Below, in pieces: positions 2,624 to 18,056 of a stretch of DNA of 64,000 nucleotides (within the stretch, counting starts at the first letter, position 1; each line of letters starts with the position of its first letter). The notes under the pieces were generated by a model. It was not told the DNA's origin, searched no databases, and saw only the letters and a list, made by a program, of their open reading frames with translations. Location of the stretch: NCBI RefSeq assembly GCF_004785795.1, contig NZ_SRRO01000001.1:3968001-4032000 (forward strand). The letters run 5' to 3'. The translations under genes were made by a program, and so were the position numbers. Source of the DNA: Nocardioides eburneiflavus (GTDB lineage: Bacteria; Actinomycetota; Actinomycetes; Propionibacteriales; Nocardioidaceae).

Positions 2624-2947
2624 ATGGCACGTCCCTCGAAGTACCCGCCCGAGTTGCGTGAGCGCGCGGTGCGGATGGTGTTGGAGTCGCGTGTGGACTA
2701 TCCGCACGAGGCGGCTGCGATCAGGTCGATCGCGGCGAAGCTCGGGATCACCTCGACCGAGTCGGTGCGCAAGTGGGTCAGGCAGGCCGAGATCGATGGT
2801 GGTGTCCGGGCCGGGAAGACCAGCGAGGAGCTGGCTGAGATCAAGGCGCTGAAGCGGGAGAACGCCGAGCTGCGGCGGGCGAACGAGATCTTGAAGAGCG
2901 CCTCGGCTTTCTTCGCGGCGGAGCTCGACCGCCCCAACAGGTATTGA
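2624..2947 (+). CDS. IS3-family transposase OrfA
   Basis: A 107-residue helix-turn-helix subunit of the complete element, identical to the upstream copy. It has the HTH in the first half and a coiled coil in the second. Its stop overlaps the OrfB start by four bases (TATTGATC). In IS3 elements this arrangement yields either separate proteins or an OrfAB fusion by -1 frameshifting. I do not see a classic A-rich slippery heptamer at the end of orfA, so re-initiation at TTG is also possible. Confidence 0.9.
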   Translation: MARPSKYPPELRERAVRMVLESRVDYPHEAAAIRSIAAKLGITSTESVRKWVRQAEIDGGVRAGKTSEELAEIKALKRENAELRRANEILKSASAFFAAELDRPNRY

Positions 2948-3864
2948 TCGACTTCATCGACACCCACAGGGCCGACTACGGGATCGAGCCGATCTGTCGT
3001 GTGCTCGCCGAGCACGGGATCAAGATCGCCCCGTCGACCTACTACGACGCCAGGGTTAGACGGCCCTCGCGACGTGCTCGGCGTGACGCCGAGATCGTCG
3101 CGGTGATCGCGGCCGAGAGGGGCCGGCAACGGCTGCTGGCGCGGTTCGGGTCACGCAAGATGTGGCTCCACCTACGCCGGCAGGGTCACGACGTGGCCAG
3201 GTGCACGATCGAGCGGCTGTACCGCCAGCAGGGCTGGGAGGGCGCACGACGGTTGAAGAAGGTCCGCACCACCATCGCCGATCCCGCGGCCGACCGTCCC
3301 CTGGATCGTGTGGACCGGCAGTTCTGGGCTGCGCGTCCGAACCAGCTGTGGGTTGCTGACTTCACCTACGTCGCGACCTGGTCCGGCACCGTCTACGTCG
3401 CATTCATCTTCGACGTGTTCTCCCGCCGCATCGTGGGCTGGCGGGCAGCGACGAGGATGACGACCGACCTGGTCCTCGACACTCTCGAGCACGCGATCTG
3501 GACTCGCCAGCAGGCCGGCATCACCGACCTGTCGGGGTTGGTCCATCACACCGATGCCGGGTCGCAGTACGTCAGTTTCGCGTTCACCGAACGGCTCGTT
3601 GACGAGGGCGTCGACCCTTCTGTCGGATCGGTCGGCGATGCCTACGATAACGCGCTCGCCGAGTCTCAGATCGGGCTCTACAAGGCTGAGCTGATCCGTC
3701 CCGAAGGACCTTGGCGCGGTGTCGAGCACGTCGAGCTCGAGACCCTCAACTGGGTCGACTTCTTCAACAACGAGCGCCCGCACGAGGCCATCGACGACCT
3801 GACCCCGGTCGAGGCCGAAGAACTTCACTACGCTGCAAGAAACCAGCTCACGCCGACCGGCTGA
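2944..3864 (+). CDS. IS3-family transposase OrfB, DDE catalytic subunit
   Basis: A 306-residue rve-type integrase core that cuts and joins the element ends. The catalytic triad is visible: Asp in WVADFTYV, Asp in HHTDAGSQY and Glu in DNALAESQIG, the last two separated by the usual 35-residue spacing. The N-terminal HTH_21 region (about 1-90) precedes it, and the FFNNERPHEAI motif closes the core. The full reading frame and intact triad suggest it could still mobilise both copies here. The start is TTG, overlapping orfA. Confidence 0.92.
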   Translation: MIDFIDTHRADYGIEPICRVLAEHGIKIAPSTYYDARVRRPSRRARRDAEIVAVIAAERGRQRLLARFGSRKMWLHLRRQGHDVARCTIERLYRQQGWEGARRLKKVRTTIADPAADRPLDRVDRQFWAARPNQLWVADFTYVATWSGTVYVAFIFDVFSRRIVGWRAATRMTTDLVLDTLEHAIWTRQQAGITDLSGLVHHTDAGSQYVSFAFTERLVDEGVDPSVGSVGDAYDNALAESQIGLYKAELIRPEGPWRGVEHVELETLNWVDFFNNERPHEAIDDLTPVEAEELHYAARNQLTPTG

Positions 3865-4671: not shown

Positions 4672-4914
4672 TCACATCTGGCCTTGAGGCATTCTGGCCC
4701 GGTAGCTCGCCGTCGCGACGTCGGCGCCCGCCTCGAAGTACGCGCGGTGCATGGCCGCGATCTCAGCGACGCCGCCGCGGAGCAGCCGGGCGGTCCACAG
4801 GTCATCGGACAGGTCGTGACCTCGGTCCTCCAGAGCATTGGACATCTCGCAGTCGAGGATCACCATGCTGCGCTTGAACACGTCGTCGAATCGCGGCACC
4901 GATGCAGTCTGCAT
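4672..4914 (-). pseudogene. Homocysteine S-methyltransferase, N-terminal stub
   Basis: An 80-residue reading frame matches only the beginning of the roughly 300-residue homocysteine S-methyltransferase family. It keeps VPRFDDVF, then VILDCEMSNALEDRGHDLSD, then YFEAGADVATASY. The glycine pair normally found in VLDGG is replaced (DCEM). The zinc-binding cysteines near the C-terminus are absent because the frame ends after about 75 family residues. It is a truncated remnant, probably non-functional, and faces away from the response regulator gene. Confidence 0.7.
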
Positions 4915-5029: not shown

Positions 5030-5410
5030 ATGCGGGGTATGCCGCCCGCGCGCGTGTTGGTCGTGGACGACCACGAAGGGTTTCGGGTGGTGGCGCGCGC
5101 GCTCCTGGAGGCTGACGGGCTCCAGGTGGTGGCGGAGGCGATCGACGGCGTGACGGCGGTGGAGGCCGCCGAGCGGCACGAACCCGACCTGGTGCTGCTC
5201 GACGTCCACCTGCCGGATCTCGACGGCTTCGAGGTGAGTCGGCTGCTGGCCCGGCTGCCAACGCCGCCGATCGTGGTGCTCACCTCGAGTCGACCGATCG
5301 GGGACCTGCACCGACGTGTGGCGGAGAGCCCTGCGGCGGGCTTCATCGCGAAGGACGGCCTGTCGGGCGCCGCGCTCTCGGCGCTGATCGCAGGCGGGCG
5401 GCCGTGCTGA
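5030..5410 (+). CDS. Single-domain response regulator (receiver only)
   Basis: A CheY-like receiver of about 126 residues with no output domain. The acidic pocket is VVDDHE, the phosphorylated aspartate is D58 in LLDVHLP, and the conserved lysine is in AKDGLSG. The family is closest to NarL-type receivers, whose HTH is missing here: the gene stops right after the fifth beta/alpha unit. Its end overlaps the GTG of the next kinase gene by seven bases, so they are co-translated. The start could be ATG 5030, 5039 or 5003; 5030 follows ACGACGAG. It may act as a phosphate sink or a carrier between the kinases and the second regulator. Confidence 0.85.
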   Translation: MRGMPPARVLVVDDHEGFRVVARALLEADGLQVVAEAIDGVTAVEAAERHEPDLVLLDVHLPDLDGFEVSRLLARLPTPPIVVLTSSRPIGDLHRRVAESPAAGFIAKDGLSGAALSALIAGGRPC

Positions 5411-6687
5411 TCCTCCTGGACGCGGCGGCGGGGCTCGCGCTGCTGGCCGTGGGGCTGATGGGCTGGACGAGGGCTCGCACGAGCGCGGCGTTCGCGACGG
5501 CGGCCGGTATGGCGTGGTTCGCGGCGTCGGCGTGGCCGGAGACGGCCCTGCTGCACCGCCCGCTGCTGCTCCACGCCGTCGTCGCGCTGGCGGGCACGTG
5601 GGGCCGACCCGTCGTGCCGCGGGCGCTGATCGTGGCCGCGTGGGTGGGCATCGCGCTGCCCGCTGCCGTGCAGTCATGGGTGTCGGTGATCCTGGCGGCG
5701 CTGTGCCTCGCGTCGGCGTTCGAGCTCCGGGCGAGCACGCGACAACTATGGCGAGCGACGGCGTCGCGGCAGGCGCTGGTGGTGCTGGCGGCGGGGCTCG
5801 CGCTCCCGTGGCTGGAGCGGCTGGTCTGGCCGCGCTACGCCGACGCGGGGCTACCGCTCGGCACCTACCTCGCCGCCGTCATCCTCTGCGCCGGCGCGCT
5901 CCTGCGCGGGATCGCTGCCCCGGGACTCCACGACACCGACGCGGTCGTCGAGCTGTCCGGGCGGACGCCGGCGGAGGCGGCGGTCGAGCTCGCGCGGCTC
6001 GCGCAGGACGAGTCGGACCCCAGGCTCCGCGAGGCGATTCGCCAGGCGGTCGCGCTCCTCGATGACAACGCGCGGCTGCAACTCGAGCTCGCGCAGCGCA
6101 TCGACGACGTACGTGCGTCGCGCCTACGACTGAGCGACGCGGCCGTCCAGGAACGCCGACGCCTCGAAGGCGTCCTGGCGCACGGCGCGATGCGCTACCT
6201 CGACGAGCTCGAGGAGTGCCTCGGTTCGGCGGGCGATAGCGAGCCGGTCCGCGCCTGCCTCGACGAGATCACCCGCACCCGCGAGGACCTCGAGCAGCTC
6301 GGCCGCGGCCTCCATCCGCGCTCCCTCACCGAGCACGGCCTCGCAGCCGCGCTCTCCGACCTCAGCCGGCGCAGCACCCTCCCGATCGAGGTGACCGCAC
6401 CCGTGGGCAGGTGGCCGGAGCGCATCGAGTGCGCGGTCTGGTATGCCCTGGCGGAGTCCCTCGCCAACGTCTCGAAGCACGCCCAGGCGACCCGGGCCTC
6501 GGTGACCGTGGAGTGCTCGGACGACGAGCTGCGCGCGATCGTCACCGACGACGGGGTCGGCGGAGCGGTGCTCATCGGCGGCGGCGGGCTGGCCGGACTC
6601 GTCGACCGGCTCGCCGTCGTGGATGGCACGGTCGACGTGGTGAGCACCCCCGCGGGCACCACCGTGACGCTGGCGGTGCCGCTGTGA
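5404..6687 (+). CDS. NarL-type histidine kinase lacking the canonical phospho-acceptor His
   Basis: A 427-residue membrane sensor with several hydrophobic helices in residues 1-185, then a coiled linker, a HisKA_3-like dimerisation helix and an HATPase domain. The dimerisation motif reads ERRRLEGVLAHGAM where the family has ERRRLExxLHDGAQ. The acceptor position is therefore A259, and a histidine appears only at the next residue (H260). The ATPase half looks intact: N355 in ESLANVSKHA, D382-D383 in TDDGVGGA, and the GGGLAGLVDRL lid. It starts GTG at 5404 and ends TGATG, overlapping the next kinase. It may be a catalytic partner for that kinase rather than a self-phosphorylating enzyme. Confidence 0.88.
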   Translation: MLILLDAAAGLALLAVGLMGWTRARTSAAFATAAGMAWFAASAWPETALLHRPLLLHAVVALAGTWGRPVVPRALIVAAWVGIALPAAVQSWVSVILAALCLASAFELRASTRQLWRATASRQALVVLAAGLALPWLERLVWPRYADAGLPLGTYLAAVILCAGALLRGIAAPGLHDTDAVVELSGRTPAEAAVELARLAQDESDPRLREAIRQAVALLDDNARLQLELAQRIDDVRASRLRLSDAAVQERRRLEGVLAHGAMRYLDELEECLGSAGDSEPVRACLDEITRTREDLEQLGRGLHPRSLTEHGLAAALSDLSRRSTLPIEVTAPVGRWPERIECAVWYALAESLANVSKHAQATRASVTVECSDDELRAIVTDDGVGGAVLIGGGGLAGLVDRLAVVDGTVDVVSTPAGTTVTLAVPL

Positions 6688-8363
6688 TGCGGGTCCTGCG
6701 GGTCGTCGTCATCGTGGCGGGCCTGGCCGGCCTGGTCGCCGTCGTCCCTGTCGTCCACAGCTCCCCCGACGCGACGTATGGCGGCGCGGACGTCCGGCTC
6801 CTTGTGCTCGAGGTCGCGGCCGCGCTTGCCCTGCTGGGCTTGTCGGCGGCGGGGCCCGCCCGCGCCTCGTCCCTGCTCGTCGGCATGGCCGGAGCCATGT
6901 GGATCGTTCCCGAGCTCGCCGGCGGCGTGGACGTCCCGCTGACCGCGCGGACCGCGGCCGACGCGCTCCCGCCACTGCTCGTCGCCACGCTCCTCGTCGC
7001 CGCACTGCTGCGCGACGCCGCACCGGGAAGCGTGGCCGTCTGGACGCTCGCCGGCGCGGGTGTGGCCGCGGGTGCCCGACTCCTGTTCGTCGATCCCTTC
7101 GACCGCCTCGACTGCTGGCGCGCCTGCGAGCACAACCCGCTCCTACTCGGTGACGGCCTTCCCGTCCTCGAGACGCTGGGCCGAGCGGGCGTGGTGGTCG
7201 GCGTCGGCTGGGCCGCCGTCATCTGGTGGCGGCGCCGACTGAGCCCGTCAGGGGCCGACCTCGCGAGGTGGGCGGTCGTCGCTGCCGCGGGCGTGTGGCT
7301 GGTGGTCCCGCCGAGCGGTATCACCTCGGCCACCGACGACGTGGCGGCCGTGACGGCGTTCGTGGTCACCCAGGTCGCCGTCCTGACCTGGCTGGCGCTC
7401 GAGGTCAGAGACGTCGTGCTCCGGTGGCGATTGGAAGCCAGGCTCGCCCGCCAGGTGAGCCTCATCCCGGCCGGCCGCGATCCCGAGGAGCTGGTCCACA
7501 GCATCCGCGCGGCGGTGCGGGAGCCCTTGCTGCGCCTGGCCTTCTGGGCTCCCGAGCGCAACGCGTTCGTCGACTCGCGTGGTCGCCTCACCGACCCGGC
7601 GCCAGGGCCGAACGAGCGGACGACGACCTTCACCCGAGAGGGCAAGGTCGTCGCGGCGTTCACCCACCCGGCGCGGCTGGACTCCCAGCGCCTGGAACGT
7701 GCCCTCGGTCCCGCCCTCCTGCTCGCGCTCGAGAACGGCCAGCTGAGGGCAGCCGCCCTTGCCGAGCTCGGCGAGCTGGAGCGGTCGCGCGCCCGTGTCG
7801 TGGAGCGGGCAGCGCTGGAGCGACGACGACTGGAGCGCAACCTGCACGACGACGCCCAGCAGCGCGCAATGTCGCTGTCGCTCCTGGTGCGGATGCTTGA
7901 GGGACGCTCCCCGGTCGCCCCCGTCGTCGTGCACCGCGCCGCCCTACTAACTCGCGCCCTCACCGAGGAGCTGCGGCGCGTGGCGCGCGGCATCTATCCC
8001 GCCGTCCTGGCCGACACCGGCCTCGCCGGCGCCGTGCTCGACCTCGCCGAACGCTCCACCGATGTGCCCGTCCTAGTGGGCGACCTCCCCGACGTGCGCT
8101 GCCCCGGGATGGTCGAGACCACGGCCTACCTTGTGGTCAGCACGGGCGTCGAGGACGCCCGACGAGGCGGCGCGAGCGAGGTCAGGGTGCACGGCGCACG
8201 GGTCGCCGACGGGCTCCGCGTCCTCGTCGAGGACGACGCCACGGCACCCGCCAGTGGAGCCGAAGAGTTGACCGACCAGGTGGGCGCCCTCGGCGGCACA
8301 CTGGTGATCGACGGAATCCCAGGACGCCGACGGATCGAGGTGGTGCTGCCGTGCGAGTCGTGA
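6687..8363 (+). CDS. NarL-type histidine kinase with degenerate ATPase domain
   Basis: A 558-residue membrane sensor: hydrophobic helices over about residues 5-240, a GAF-like linker (250-340), a coiled coil, and a textbook HisKA_3 motif ERRRLERNLHDDAQQR with the acceptor at H387. The C-terminal domain aligns to HATPase_c but has lost the working parts. The N-box Asn is gone (TGVEDARRGGA). The G1 box reads VEDDATAPA without its glycines. The G2 lid reads SGAEELTDQV instead of GLxGLxxR. It probably cannot bind ATP. The ATG overlaps the previous stop (TGATG), so the two kinases should be made in equal amounts. The start at 6687 was chosen for that coupling. Confidence 0.88.
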   Translation: MRVLRVVVIVAGLAGLVAVVPVVHSSPDATYGGADVRLLVLEVAAALALLGLSAAGPARASSLLVGMAGAMWIVPELAGGVDVPLTARTAADALPPLLVATLLVAALLRDAAPGSVAVWTLAGAGVAAGARLLFVDPFDRLDCWRACEHNPLLLGDGLPVLETLGRAGVVVGVGWAAVIWWRRRLSPSGADLARWAVVAAAGVWLVVPPSGITSATDDVAAVTAFVVTQVAVLTWLALEVRDVVLRWRLEARLARQVSLIPAGRDPEELVHSIRAAVREPLLRLAFWAPERNAFVDSRGRLTDPAPGPNERTTTFTREGKVVAAFTHPARLDSQRLERALGPALLLALENGQLRAAALAELGELERSRARVVERAALERRRLERNLHDDAQQRAMSLSLLVRMLEGRSPVAPVVVHRAALLTRALTEELRRVARGIYPAVLADTGLAGAVLDLAERSTDVPVLVGDLPDVRCPGMVETTAYLVVSTGVEDARRGGASEVRVHGARVADGLRVLVEDDATAPASGAEELTDQVGALGGTLVIDGIPGRRRIEVVLPCES

Positions 8364-9061: not shown

Positions 9062-10570
9062 ATGAAGACGACGACCCTGCCCCTGTTGGTCGCGAGCACT
9101 CTCCTCGCCTGCGCGGCCTGCACCGATGCCCCCGACAAGTCCGGTGGCGGCGCACCCGTCACGACGCTCGTGATGGCCAGCAACGACGGAGCCGGTCTGG
9201 AGAACGCGCCCGCCGTCGGCCGCTTCGTGGACCTGGTGTCCGAGCTCTCCGACGGCCGGCTCGAGGTCGAGGTCACCGGGAAGTGGTACATCGCCGGTGA
9301 GCAGAAGGTGCTCAACTCCGTCGCGACGGGCGAGGCCGACCTCGCCTGGAGCGGCACCCGCGCCCTCGACACAATCGGCGTGGACAGCTTCCGCCCGTTG
9401 CATGCACCGTTCCTCGTCGACTCCTACGCGGCCCAGGCTGCCGTGCTGGGCGATGACCTGGCCGACGAGATGCTCGCCGGCTTCGAGGGCACGGGGCTCA
9501 CCGGCCTCGCCGTGCTCGCCGACGAGCTCCGCTTCGTGGCCAGCGCGGAGGGACCGATCCGGAGCGCGGACGACCTCGCCGGTCTCGAGTTCGGCACCTT
9601 CCCCTCCAACACCCAGACGGCCGCCCTTAAGGCTCTCGGAACCCACGTCAAGGCCCTCCGTACCCCGCACCCCCCGGACACCGACGGCCTGCACGCGCTC
9701 GAGACGAGCTGGCCGACCTACCTCGCCAACCGGCAGGTCGAGTTCATGCCCTTCGCGAGCCCCGAGGCGGTGCTCTGGCCACGCAGCACGGTGCTGGTCG
9801 CCAACGCCGACCTGTGGTCAGGACTGCCGGAGGAGGACCAGGAGGTCCTGTCGGAGGCCGCGGCCGAGGCGGCCGCCTGGTCGCTCGAGCATGCGGACGA
9901 CCGCGTCAGCGGCGAAGTAGGCCGCGCGTGCCGCGCCGGCGCGCGCATCGTCTCGACCTCCGACGAGCAGCTCCAGACCCTGCGCGCCGCCGCCGCTCCG
10001 GCGTACGACGACCTGCGGTCCGACCCCGACCAGGCAGCGACCCTGAGCGCCATCGAGGCGCTCGTGGACAAGAGCGGCCCCGAGACCGTCGAGGTCCCCG
10101 AGGGCTGCGCCTACCGACGCGGCGACGAGGATCACGTCGCGGTGTCCGTCCTGCCCGCCGTGCTCGACGGCCCCGGCCGGACCGGCGACCTGCCCCAGGG
10201 CACCTACCGCTACGAGCTCGGGCACCAGGAGATCCTGGACGGCGGCGAGTTCAGCGAGGAGTTCGCCACGGCCAACGCCGGCGTCTGGACCTGGACCCTG
10301 CGTGACGGGCGCTGGGACTACGAGATGAAACTCATCGCTCAGGAGCTCCCGGCCGGCTACGCCGGCACCACCTGTGAGGGCTACTACGACGTCGTCGGGG
10401 ACGAGATGCGCTTCACCACCGTGACGGTCTATGCCACTGGTGATTGCGCGTCGGAGACGTGGAAGGCCACGTGGCGGGAGACCGCCGACGGGCTCGCCAT
10501 GGACGTGACCACGGACGGGGACGACCTCGACTTCCTCTTCGGCAGCAAGCCCTGGGAACGCATCGGCTGA
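9062..10570 (+). CDS. TRAP-type (DctP-like) solute-binding lipoprotein with extra C-terminal domain
   Basis: A 502-residue lipoprotein. The signal peptide ends in a lipobox LLAC/CAAC (lipidated Cys 17 or 20). Residues about 30-345 resemble DctP substrate-binding proteins (NSVATGEADLAWSG, then FGTFPSNTQ, then EFMPFASPEAVLW). Normal DctP proteins end near 340. Here about 150 more residues form a beta-rich, lipocalin-like tail with three cysteines and repeated W/Y/G motifs (GTYRYELG, WTWTLRDG, CEGYYDV). No TRAP membrane subunits are next to it, so it may be a sensor-linked binding protein rather than a transporter part. It follows the response regulator by 57 bases. Confidence 0.75.
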   Translation: MKTTTLPLLVASTLLACAACTDAPDKSGGGAPVTTLVMASNDGAGLENAPAVGRFVDLVSELSDGRLEVEVTGKWYIAGEQKVLNSVATGEADLAWSGTRALDTIGVDSFRPLHAPFLVDSYAAQAAVLGDDLADEMLAGFEGTGLTGLAVLADELRFVASAEGPIRSADDLAGLEFGTFPSNTQTAALKALGTHVKALRTPHPPDTDGLHALETSWPTYLANRQVEFMPFASPEAVLWPRSTVLVANADLWSGLPEEDQEVLSEAAAEAAAWSLEHADDRVSGEVGRACRAGARIVSTSDEQLQTLRAAAAPAYDDLRSDPDQAATLSAIEALVDKSGPETVEVPEGCAYRRGDEDHVAVSVLPAVLDGPGRTGDLPQGTYRYELGHQEILDGGEFSEEFATANAGVWTWTLRDGRWDYEMKLIAQELPAGYAGTTCEGYYDVVGDEMRFTTVTVYATGDCASETWKATWRETADGLAMDVTTDGDDLDFLFGSKPWERIG

Positions 10571-15131: not shown

Positions 15132-18056
15132 GTGGTCGAACCTGCTCCCAAGAGCCCCCCTACGGTGCCCGGTCGCAGCGGTACTCCGTTTGTTGGGCGG
15201 CGCCCGGAGATCGAGCGCCTCGAGGCGGTCTGGTCAGCGGTGGAGGACAACAGGCGACAGATCGTCTTCATCGGCGGGGAGCCGGGCGTCGGCAAGACCC
15301 GCCTGGTGGCTGAGGCCGCGGCCGCGCTGCGCCGGTACGGCGTCACCGTGCTTTCTGGTGCATGCCGAGAAGATCTCGACATCCCCTACAGGCCATTTGT
15401 CGCCATCCTCGAACAAGCCCTCGACCAGGTGGATCCGGAGGTCCTGCGCAGCATTCCGTCCGAGGCGGCAGCCCCGCTCGTGCGCTTGAGTGCCAAGGCG
15501 GCGTTGCATTGGCCAGGCACCGCGAGCCCGACCTCTGGCGAGAGCCAGTCTCGGCCAGCGCTGTTCGACGCGGTGTTGCGCGTCCTGGTCGCCGCGGCCG
15601 AGCAGCGACCGCTCGCACTGGTACTGGAGGATCTCCACTGGGCCCCGGAACCGACCTTGGCAATGCTCGCACACCTGGTCGAGTCCACCGCCGGGGAGCA
15701 GTTGCTGGTGTTGGCCACCCGACGGACCACCGCCCCTGACCGCACCGACGCGGTCACCTTCGCGCTGGCAGACCTGCATCGGCTCGACGGTGTGGCGCGC
15801 ATCGACCTAGTCGGACTCGAGACCGAGGATGTGGCGGAGTACCTCGTTCGTGCGGCCGGGGTCCCACGCGTCTCGGCCCGGTCAGCGGCACCCCTGTTGC
15901 GGGACCAGACCGGCGGCAACCCGTTCTTCCTCCAGGAGTATTGGCACGACCTGGCAGGCCACGGAGGGCTCGAGGCGATGCGGTGCGCCACAGCCCAGGC
16001 GCCGCAGTCGGTGCAGGATGCGCTCCGTCGTCGGCTGGCCGGGTTCCCTCCCGACCACGCCCAGGTCATCGAGATTGCAGCCGTCGCCGGCGACATCGTC
16101 GACCCCTCGGTCCTCACCGAGGCCTGCGACCTCGAGGCGAGCGTCGTTCTCGAGGGGATCGACTTCTGCGAAGGCGCGGGTCTCCTGGTCGCGGACGCCG
16201 ATGATGGCCGCTTCCGGTTCGCGCACGCGCTAGCCCGGCAGGCCGTGCTCGATCGGATGTCCTCCACCTGCCGCGCGGCGGCACACGCGCGAGTCGCCAA
16301 GGCACTGGAGTTGCACGCCGGGGAGGACGACCCGGCGCTAGTGGCCCAACTGGCCCACCACTACGGGCAGGCGCGTGCGCTCGGGCACGCGGACAAGGCG
16401 ATCCACTATCTCGTCCTCGCCGCTCAGCAGGCCGAGCGCGGCATTGCTCACCGCGAGGCCGCGGCGCTGTACGAGCGGGCAACGCAGCTCCATTTGCACC
16501 AGGGCCCGACCAGGGTCGGGCTGCTCTTGGCCGCTGCGAGGTGCCACATGCACGGTGGTGACTTTCCGGCAGCCCGTCGCATCTACGAAGAGCTTTGCAC
16601 CGACGAGGACGCCCGGGTCAGGTTGCTGGCCGCCATTGGCCACGAGGATGCCTCGTGGCGTCCCTCGCACAGCGGAGAGCGTTCGCTGGCGCTGCTCGCC
16701 GAGGCCTTGGCTGCCGCCGGGCTGGACGACGACGACTCGCTGCGCATACGAGCCCGCGCCAGCATGGGCCGGGCGGCGGCGTTCACCGGTGAACTCCGAC
16801 GGTCCCGCACGATCGGTGAGGAGGCATTGCTGCGGGCTCGCAGGACGGGAGATGAAGCGCTGGTCGCCCATGCGCTCGGCGCGACCTTGTGGCAGGGCCT
16901 GACCCCGGATCTCGCTCCCGAACTGCTGGCCCGTGCCCTGGAGCTCCAGGAGATCGGGGCGCGGATCGGCGACGGTGGTTTCGCCGGGATGGCCGCCTTC
17001 CACCGCGGCGGCTTCGCCTACACCGTGGGCAACCAGCCTGTGTGGAGCAGTGCCCAGCGCGACCTGACCGAGCTCGCGCTCTCCGGCGGCCAGCCCTTCT
17101 TCCGCTACGTCGCCGGGTGCTCTCGCTACGCCCACAGGTTCGCGGCCGGCGACTTCGCGGGAGCGGGACGCATCGTCGACTGGCTGGACGACCAGTTCCG
17201 CGACGAGTTCGACGGCGGGACCGAAGGCGCCTGGGGAGTGCAGCAGTTCATGCTGCGGCGGGTAGCCGACGGTCTGGACGAGGTCCGGCCGCTCGTGACG
17301 GGAGACGAGAGCCTTGCCGAGCACTGGCTTCCGGGCCTGCTGGCGCTCTACACCGAACTCGAGTTGTGGCAGCCGGCTGCCCGACTGCTCACCCACTTGC
17401 GCGAACACTTCGACGAGTACCGCGCCGGCGCCCAGTGGGCGGGCGTGCTGGCCTTCGCGACGGAGGCCGCCGTCGGCCTGGACGACACGGCCGCGGCCGC
17501 GCAGCTGCGACCCCTGCTGGCCGAGTACGCCGGCGCCAACCTGCTGGCCGGCGCGAACGCCGCAGTCTTCGGAAGCGCCGACCGGTATCTGGCCATGCTC
17601 GACTCACTGCTGGGCGCTCCCGACGCCGACCAGCACTTCGAGCGTGCCCTCGCCATGGACCGGCAGATGGGCGCCGTCACCCACCAGGCAGAGACCCTCG
17701 CCGCCTGGAGTTGGCACCGGACCAGACACCCGGAGACGACCGGCCCGCCAGCCATACGGCTCGTCGAAGAAGCGCGAGCCTTGGCCCGGCGAATCGGCCA
17801 CCGCCGCGTCCTTAGCAGACTTGACGCCGACGCTGCACCGCAGGAAGTGCCGCCGACGCTGCCCAGCGGCCTGACCGAGCGGGAAGTCGACGTACTCCGC
17901 CTGGTCGCCGAGGGCCTGTCCAATCGGGAGATCGGCGAACGCCTATTCATAAGTGCCAATACGGCGGCCAACCACGTGCGCAGCATCCTGATCAAGACCG
18001 ACGCATCCAATCGCACCAAGGCAGCGGTCTTCGCCACTGAGCACGGATTGCTGTAG
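15132..18056 (+). CDS. Large ATP-binding LuxR-family regulator (LAL/MalT-like)
   Basis: A 974-residue STAND-type transcription activator. The AAA ATPase part has Walker A GEPGVGKTR (about residues 49-57) and Walker B LALVLEDLHW (about 160). A long TPR-like helical middle (about 380-880) follows, then a LuxR helix-turn-helix at the end (GLTEREVDVLRLVAEGLSNREIGERLF). Proteins of this class couple ligand binding in the helical part to activation of nearby operons. It is divergent from the cupin-oxidase-methyltransferase operon, its likely target. The GTG start at 15132 is used; the frame has no better start upstream. Confidence 0.92.
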   Translation: MVEPAPKSPPTVPGRSGTPFVGRRPEIERLEAVWSAVEDNRRQIVFIGGEPGVGKTRLVAEAAAALRRYGVTVLSGACREDLDIPYRPFVAILEQALDQVDPEVLRSIPSEAAAPLVRLSAKAALHWPGTASPTSGESQSRPALFDAVLRVLVAAAEQRPLALVLEDLHWAPEPTLAMLAHLVESTAGEQLLVLATRRTTAPDRTDAVTFALADLHRLDGVARIDLVGLETEDVAEYLVRAAGVPRVSARSAAPLLRDQTGGNPFFLQEYWHDLAGHGGLEAMRCATAQAPQSVQDALRRRLAGFPPDHAQVIEIAAVAGDIVDPSVLTEACDLEASVVLEGIDFCEGAGLLVADADDGRFRFAHALARQAVLDRMSSTCRAAAHARVAKALELHAGEDDPALVAQLAHHYGQARALGHADKAIHYLVLAAQQAERGIAHREAAALYERATQLHLHQGPTRVGLLLAAARCHMHGGDFPAARRIYEELCTDEDARVRLLAAIGHEDASWRPSHSGERSLALLAEALAAAGLDDDDSLRIRARASMGRAAAFTGELRRSRTIGEEALLRARRTGDEALVAHALGATLWQGLTPDLAPELLARALELQEIGARIGDGGFAGMAAFHRGGFAYTVGNQPVWSSAQRDLTELALSGGQPFFRYVAGCSRYAHRFAAGDFAGAGRIVDWLDDQFRDEFDGGTEGAWGVQQFMLRRVADGLDEVRPLVTGDESLAEHWLPGLLALYTELELWQPAARLLTHLREHFDEYRAGAQWAGVLAFATEAAVGLDDTAAAAQLRPLLAEYAGANLLAGANAAVFGSADRYLAMLDSLLGAPDADQHFERALAMDRQMGAVTHQAETLAAWSWHRTRHPETTGPPAIRLVEEARALARRIGHRRVLSRLDADAAPQEVPPTLPSGLTEREVDVLRLVAEGLSNREIGERLFISANTAANHVRSILIKTDASNRTKAAVFATEHGLL

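Follow-up and report, generated by a model that had tools for sequence, protein, structure and literature searches.

Complementary motif losses in a conserved NarL-type histidine kinase pair of Nocardioides eburneiflavus and its DctP-type companion

The stretch of DNA analysed here (the window: 64,000 nucleotides of Nocardioides eburneiflavus, positions 3,968,001 to 4,032,000 of contig NZ_SRRO01000001.1) carries one tight run of five genes, all on the plus strand, which encode a receiver-only protein (RR0), two membrane sensor kinases (K1 and K2), a NarL/LuxR-type response regulator (RR) and a solute-binding protein of the DctP family (SBP) (Table 1). RR0 and K1 overlap by 7 bases, K1 and K2 through the sequence TGATG and K2 and RR by 13 bases; SBP starts 57 bases past RR and lies outside the overlapping set of four. 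An earlier note on this DNA had described two adjacent kinases with complementary defects at 5404..8363, overlapping at TGATG between a receiver-only protein and a NarL-type regulator, and had proposed that they form an obligate heteromeric kinase. The coordinates, overlaps and residues were all confirmed, but the extent was too narrow, as the system is larger and the DctP-type gene at 9062-10570 also belongs to it.

Table 1. Positions in the window of the five genes and of the residues and overlap discussed in the text
Feature	Position	Strand	Support
RR0, receiver-only protein, 135 aa	5003..5410	+	Pfam Response_reg 73.6 bits
K1, membrane sensor kinase, 427 aa, ATPase domain intact, acceptor His lost (Ala259)	5404..6687	+	
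Ala259-His260 of K1, lost acceptor and non-conserved adjoining His	6178..6183	+	Sequence; acceptor column without His in 32/32 rows
Asn355, N-box of K1	6466..6468	+	Invariant in alignment A2
TGATG, overlap of K1 stop and K2 start	6685..6689	+	Sequence
K2, membrane sensor kinase, 558 aa, HDxxxQ acceptor complete, ATPase domain degenerate	6687..8363	+	
His387 of K2, proposed phospho-acceptor of the pair	7845..7847	+	Invariant in alignment A1 (50 sequences)
RR, NarL/LuxR-type response regulator, 217 aa	8351..9004	+	Pfam Response_reg and GerE over cut-off
SBP, DctP-family (TRAP-type) solute-binding protein, 502 aa	9062..10570	+	Pfam DctP 106 bits

The acceptor region of K1, ERRRLEGVLAHGAMRYL, has Ala259 (codon 6178-6180) in place of the acceptor, with His260 adjoining it, and K1 does not have the HisKA_3 acceptor motif (H-D/E-x-x-x-Q) of a NarL/DesK-type kinase. 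Its ATPase motifs are intact, namely the N-box ESLANVSKH with Asn355, DDGVGG with Asp382, and GGGLAGL. Pfam yields HATPase-type matches only, with HATPase_c at 24.5 bits (below the cut-off of 26.4) and no HisKA_3 match, and the K1 profile compared with PDB sequences matched DesK, DosS/DosT, VraS and one blue-light kinase. When close relatives of K1 were aligned to 55 complete kinases, the acceptor histidine was present in none of 32 rows, while the N-box asparagine, the aspartate and both G1 glycines were present in all 31 rows with a readable ATPase domain (rows P0002 and P0005-P0035, in which the window protein is counted twice and P0030 looks frameshifted after the dimerization and histidine phosphotransfer (DHp) region).

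K2 shows the complementary losses. Its acceptor region, ERRRLERNLHDDAQQR, contains a complete HDxxxQ motif with His387, while in the would-be N-box, STGVEDARRGG, Asp490 occupies the asparagine position, and DxGxG, the G1 glycines and the GxGL lid were not found anywhere in the K2 sequence. The HATPase_c domain is not detected, and the only Pfam match is HisKA_3, at 22.8 bits against a cut-off of 24 and at a passing 26.6 bits in the genome search. Among K2 relatives the His, Asp, Gln and Gln of the acceptor motif were found in 71 of 71 rows and the N-box asparagine in one (rows P0003 and P0125-P0194, with the window protein counted twice and a few rows broken or partial). The HD..QQ motif is likewise invariant in alignment A1. 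The earlier note's reading of both proteins, an alanine at the phospho-acceptor with a complete ATPase core in K1 and a perfect acceptor motif with the N-box asparagine, G1 and G2 lid lost in K2, is borne out by these residues and by the profile comparison, in which K1 resembles only ATPase-type domains and K2 only HisKA_3, both just under cut-off. Neither member alone holds both motif sets; together they do.

The losses concern motifs and not whole domains. DHp helices and the fold of the catalytic and ATP-binding (CA) domain are present in the structure models of both chains, the pseudo-ATPase fold of K2 is retained, and among solved structures those of the DesK/VraS type are nearest in fold to both CA domains. 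The K2 profile gave no match among PDB sequences at 0.001, but this absence does not count against the fold. Compared with each other's models, the membrane parts of the two kinases give only weak and inconsistent matches. A CWRxCxHN motif lies in the membrane part of K2 (residues 143-150, 7113-7136) and its Cys143 and Cys147 are invariant in A1; it may be a disulfide or binding site on the outside.

To place these losses, relatives were collected in protein searches (the best 120 of 541 K1 relatives and the best 120 of 192 K2 relatives, with rows taken down to the drop in score), in a scan that ran the K2 alignment over 84,980 species genomes (80 best loci kept out of 265, its reach limited by exact words) and in further searches of 1,250 genomes, some of them counted repeatedly; the large ones among these searches scored three to four candidates in each genome. 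Twelve distinct K1-K2 loci resulted: that of the window, five from the scan, in a Frankiaceae metagenome-assembled genome (MAG; L017), Kribbella (L018), Pseudonocardia nigra (L019), Nocardioides guangzhouensis (L041) and an Ornithinibacter MAG (L052), and six from the genome searches (L129, L136, L137, L141, L162 and L164). L132, on a contig of the same length as that of L018, was taken to be that locus, and L133 is contained in L141, which leaves one count for each; genome G1022, in which K1 and K2 stand at two contig ends (L161 and L163), was left out of the count. More such pairs probably exist, since few candidates were scored per genome and the exact words of the scan are partly absent from the K2 of the window.

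At nine of the 12 loci a K1 without the acceptor histidine stands together with a K2 with broken ATPase motifs, both being readable, so that the two defects do co-occur in the same gene pair elsewhere. Two complete kinases, the arrangement that the earlier note had set against its own proposal, were found at none of the 12. The same loss pattern is present in several families of Actinomycetota. It is more than a chance pattern, and of 119 distinct background sequences 118 keep both the histidine and the asparagine. It must be noted that these are the other kinases of the collected loci for which the complete-kinase model gives the best score, and that they are relatives and not a random sample; rows gapped at the histidine or asparagine column were skipped, and 14 K2-like rows called complete for having the asparagine were excluded. 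The exception (L050, 5926-6897) is a single short kinase between a receiver and a LuxR regulator, with the N-box asparagine changed to serine, and is another kind of degenerate kinase.

In a tree of 142 kinase domains K1 forms one clade with an SH-aLRT (Shimodaira-Hasegawa-like approximate likelihood ratio test) support of 99, also when the trait columns are removed. K2 forms one clade save for one misplaced partial row, with a support of 92 when the trait columns are taken out and that row is dropped (the K2 of L164, of which only the N-terminal part is on the contig). Three subgroups match between K1 and K2: subgroup A, with the window, L017, L018, L019 and L052 (support 100 in both); subgroup B1, with L129 and L137, plus L162 for K1 (82 in K1, 95 in K2); and subgroup B2, with L041, L136, L141 and G1022 (89 in K1, 99 in K2). 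The gene order in subgroup A is RR0-K1-K2-RR-SBP. The K1 and K2 distance matrices over 10 pairs correlate with r 0.835 (Mantel p 1e-4), a figure in which pair coupling and shared species history are not separable; in two sets of five pairs the correlations are 0.91 and 0.86.

The tree rows show the N-box asparagine in 39 of 39 K1 and 2 of 34 K2, and the acceptor histidine with its glutamine in 34 of 34 K2. The acceptor histidine changes at least 8 times on the tree, with non-histidine states in K1 only, and the asparagine needs three changes. Since K1 always keeps the asparagine, K2 always keeps the histidine and only K1 loses it, each pair has one engine and one acceptor. The glutamine at +5 is present in one of 39 K1 rows and is absent from nine of the ten rows that keep the histidine. 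These distributions suggest an order of loss in which K2 lost its ATPase early and K1, later and more than once, its phosphatase glutamine and then its histidine. Next in rank in the K2 search are complete single kinases; many of them stand in receiver-kinase-regulator operons, which is plausible as the ancestral layout.

The fifth gene was absent from the account in the earlier note, and the finding of an orphan DctP-type protein as a conserved companion of the kinase pair is new here. SBP matches Pfam DctP (PF03480) far above the cut-off of 23.4 bits, carries the sequence LLAC, which resembles a lipobox, and an additional C-terminal region, and is the only DctP-family match in the genome. 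With the SBP profile the gene was found at 11 of the 12 pair loci, the exception (L129) being a contig of 5,071 bases, and at none of 76 complete-kinase loci, 50 of which are at least 12.5 kb long; one tally of the profile matches had taken L018 twice, as L132, and omitted the window, which was covered separately. The gene lies antisense between K1 and K2 at L041, L136, L137, L141 and L162, and antisense before K1 at L164. A third kinase was sought in the 1.5 kb that separate K1 from K2 at L041, L133, L136 and L137; what lies there instead is the DctP-type gene, on the opposite strand. Among metagenomic proteins, longest contigs of identical size were found for K1 and SBP in 3 cases against 0.31 expected and for K2 and SBP in 6 against 0.53. 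A TRAP (tripartite ATP-independent periplasmic) transport operon was also rejected, given that the genome yields a single DctM match (23.5 bits, or 24.7 with neighbours, cut-off 23.8) and that this is a GntP permease at 163.6 bits; DctQ was not searched for. The simplest reading makes SBP a putative ligand sensor.

Both receivers of the window are intact. RR0 has the phospho-acceptor aspartate (LLDVHLP), the DD pair, the T/S and the lysine, and a receiver precedes K1 at 11 of the 12 pair loci; in 10 RR0 sequences compared, the catalytic residues are kept where readable, that of L017 ending at a contig end.

We consider it likely, with good confidence, that K1 and K2 are two halves of one heteromeric sensor kinase, which is probably gated by the DctP-type protein. 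K1 would supply the sole working ATPase domain and phosphorylate His387 of K2 in trans across the heteromer, while K2 would supply the phosphate-carrying histidine, the docking helix for the regulators and the phosphatase glutamine, its own ATPase domain persisting as a folded pseudo-domain only. With its acceptor, its phosphatase glutamine and the conserved helix after that all retained, K2 probably donates to both receivers, and phosphate would pass to the LuxR-type RR as the output and to RR0 as a sink or second output. SBP, at the surface and probably lipid-anchored, would probably pass on a ligand signal to K1, K2 or both. By analogy with the free acceptor subunit of CheA3/CheA4, free K2 could likewise be the better phosphatase.

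Several observations weigh against this interpretation, above all in its strict form. In the tree, 10 of 39 K1 rows keep the acceptor histidine, though none in subgroup A, and so do the K1 of two of the 12 loci, L141 and L162, both without the +5 glutamine; some of these K1 could be able to autophosphorylate, which argues against universal obligacy. At L141 the N-box of K2 is lost, but the K2 frame of L162 is broken and its N-box unreadable, and at L164, where K1 is without the histidine, the contig ends before the kinase part of K2 is reached. The K2 of L019 and P0150 retain the N-box asparagine, the former without glycine boxes. Genome G995 (89% complete, partly masked) has a K2 (L140) without a K1 on a 12-kb contig, and a search of that genome gave no K1-type match elsewhere at E <= 1e-45. 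The degenerate kinase of L050 has neither a K1 partner nor a binding protein within the 12.9 kb examined. RR0 may be dispensable in places, as it appears lost in L164 (Kribbella relative G046), where only a remnant is left, a frame of 107 residues (7131-7454) with the start of a receiver and without the aspartate region. Among metagenomic proteins K1 and K2 have longest contigs of identical size in 8 cases against 0.24 expected from near misses, which speaks for the pair, though this kind of evidence is indirect. The complementary defects that the earlier note's proposal was built on stand and are co-inherited, and the finding is real and stronger than first stated; obligacy does not extend to all pairs and is inferred for the subgroup of the window alone, in which no K1 keeps the histidine.

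Among other explanations, the most serious is that one member is a pseudokinase regulator, K2 being an acceptor and phosphatase hub that a different kinase supplies, or K1 an allosteric modulator that transfers no phosphate. Regulatory pseudo-histidine kinases do exist, DivL acting on CckA and, as discussed in PMC12675982, RetS acting on GacS. However, K1 keeps its asparagine, aspartate and G1 glycines in every readable row and loses the acceptor side alone; a pure modulator is unlikely because it would not need all ATP-binding motifs, and the losses of K1 and K2 are complementary and co-inherited. We regard this explanation as improbable. The earlier note's main alternative, a shifted acceptor at His260 that would leave K1 self-sufficient and K2 a decaying paralogue, is still less credible. 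The window protein and P0006 do have a histidine one residue past the lost acceptor, as does the sister-group K1 of L164, but the position is not conserved, being A, D, Q, E, R, N or S in 29 of 32 K1 rows, and two of the three rows with histidine are the window's own protein; His260 is rejected as an acceptor on these grounds. Nor is K2 a decaying protein, with an acceptor motif invariant over 50 sequences and a pseudo-ATPase fold kept in the model.

Least probable of all, to the point of being hardly tenable, is that the pair has no function and is what decay has left of a duplicated kinase. In favour of this, a transposase-type gene with an integrase core and a truncated homocysteine methyltransferase lie nearby, the pair is absent from most relatives searched and the K2 frame of L162 is broken. 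Against this, the open frames are full-length with coupled overlaps, both proteins have invariant residues, a fifth gene is conserved with them, and the loss pattern common to several actinobacterial families led us to reject a pseudogene. The heteromeric kinase thus remains preferred.

A transposase-type gene (rve, HTH_21), which we take to be IS3-like, lies upstream of the operon at 2944-3864, with a weaker integrase-core match at 974-2230. A full-length K1 was found in one other genome only among the same-order genomes searched, so that horizontal gain of the operon is possible. Just upstream of RR0 an N-terminal stub of a homocysteine S-methyltransferase (4672-4870, minus strand, 57 of 283 profile positions) is apparently a gene remnant. 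Downstream, a large gene at 15132-18056 encodes a regulator with AAA_16 and LuxR domains. Elsewhere, about four tandem DctP-type genes lie near the K2 of G995 (L140, 6182-11761, partly masked).

The solved kinases closest in fold to both CA domains of the window, those of the DesK/VraS type (HisKA_3), are homodimers with both functions in one chain. In Mycobacterium tuberculosis, Rv0600c, Rv0601c and TcrA reportedly form a three-protein system with the ATPase and the acceptor on two kinases; these are short split proteins of another kinase class, which sets them apart. FasB and FasC of group A Streptococcus are likewise not of the HisKA_3/NarL type and belong to an AgrC-like class. For FasB/FasC/FasA the authors propose a heterodimer in which the kinase domain comes from FasB and His246 from FasC (PMC12675982). 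As with K1 and K2, two kinase-like proteins of one locus, one of them a proposed pseudokinase bearing the phosphorylated histidine, serve one regulator; unlike in our pair, a putative acceptor histidine of FasB is still considered, and the accessible text describes neither a receiver-only protein nor a binding protein (PMC12675982). In CheA3/CheA4 of Rhodobacter sphaeroides, it is reported that neither protein autophosphorylates alone and that the ATPase of one phosphorylates the histidine of the other (PMC3591291). The phosphatase activity resides on the acceptor subunit, which performs better when free, and in models this is linked to ultrasensitive and bistable behaviour (PMC3591291). This separation of ATPase and acceptor on two proteins is like that proposed for K1 and K2, but in these kinases of the chemotaxis CheA family domains are missing (PMC3591291), whereas K1 and K2 have been inactivated in place with membrane part, DHp and CA fold kept; since both chains retain the latter two in the models, theirs is a split by motif loss and not by domain loss. 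CheA3/CheA4 and FasB/FasC are the nearest in logic, and precedents are wider than the split CheA named in the earlier note, as FasB/FasC is modelled likewise (PMC12675982). AbrC1/AbrC2/AbrC3 of Streptomyces coelicolor also combines two histidine kinases with one regulator in an actinomycete, but AbrC1 and AbrC2 each autophosphorylate their own histidine in vitro (PMC4428217). In the open-access literature no description of this actinobacterial kinase pair or of its binding protein was found.

A wider proposal, which we put forward tentatively and with rather less confidence than the heteromer itself, is that these loci make up a distinct five-component actinobacterial class, in which an orphan TRAP-type lipoprotein receptor would gate an obligately heteromeric NarL-type kinase serving two receivers. 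Of its two full-length membrane sensors, one would have retained the ATP engine alone and the other the acceptor and phosphatase alone. The class would have arisen stepwise, through the early loss of the K2 ATPase and the later, repeated loss of the K1 glutamine and histidine, and K1:K2 heteromers would make phosphate that K2 homodimers remove.

Domain-by-domain annotation can make proteins such as K1 and K2 look incomplete. If our interpretation is true, complementary loss has here made an obligate heteromer out of a homodimeric enzyme, in a natural case that has been sampled repeatedly, with intermediate stages, K1 with the histidine and without the phosphatase glutamine, alive today. One could then test directly how trans-phosphorylation is arranged in space, in what order degeneration went and what is gained by keeping kinase and phosphatase apart. 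An orphan TRAP-type binding protein gains a likely sensing role, and a kinase made of K1:K2 with a phosphatase made of K2 homodimers would be a build that split-kinase theory links to switch-like output.

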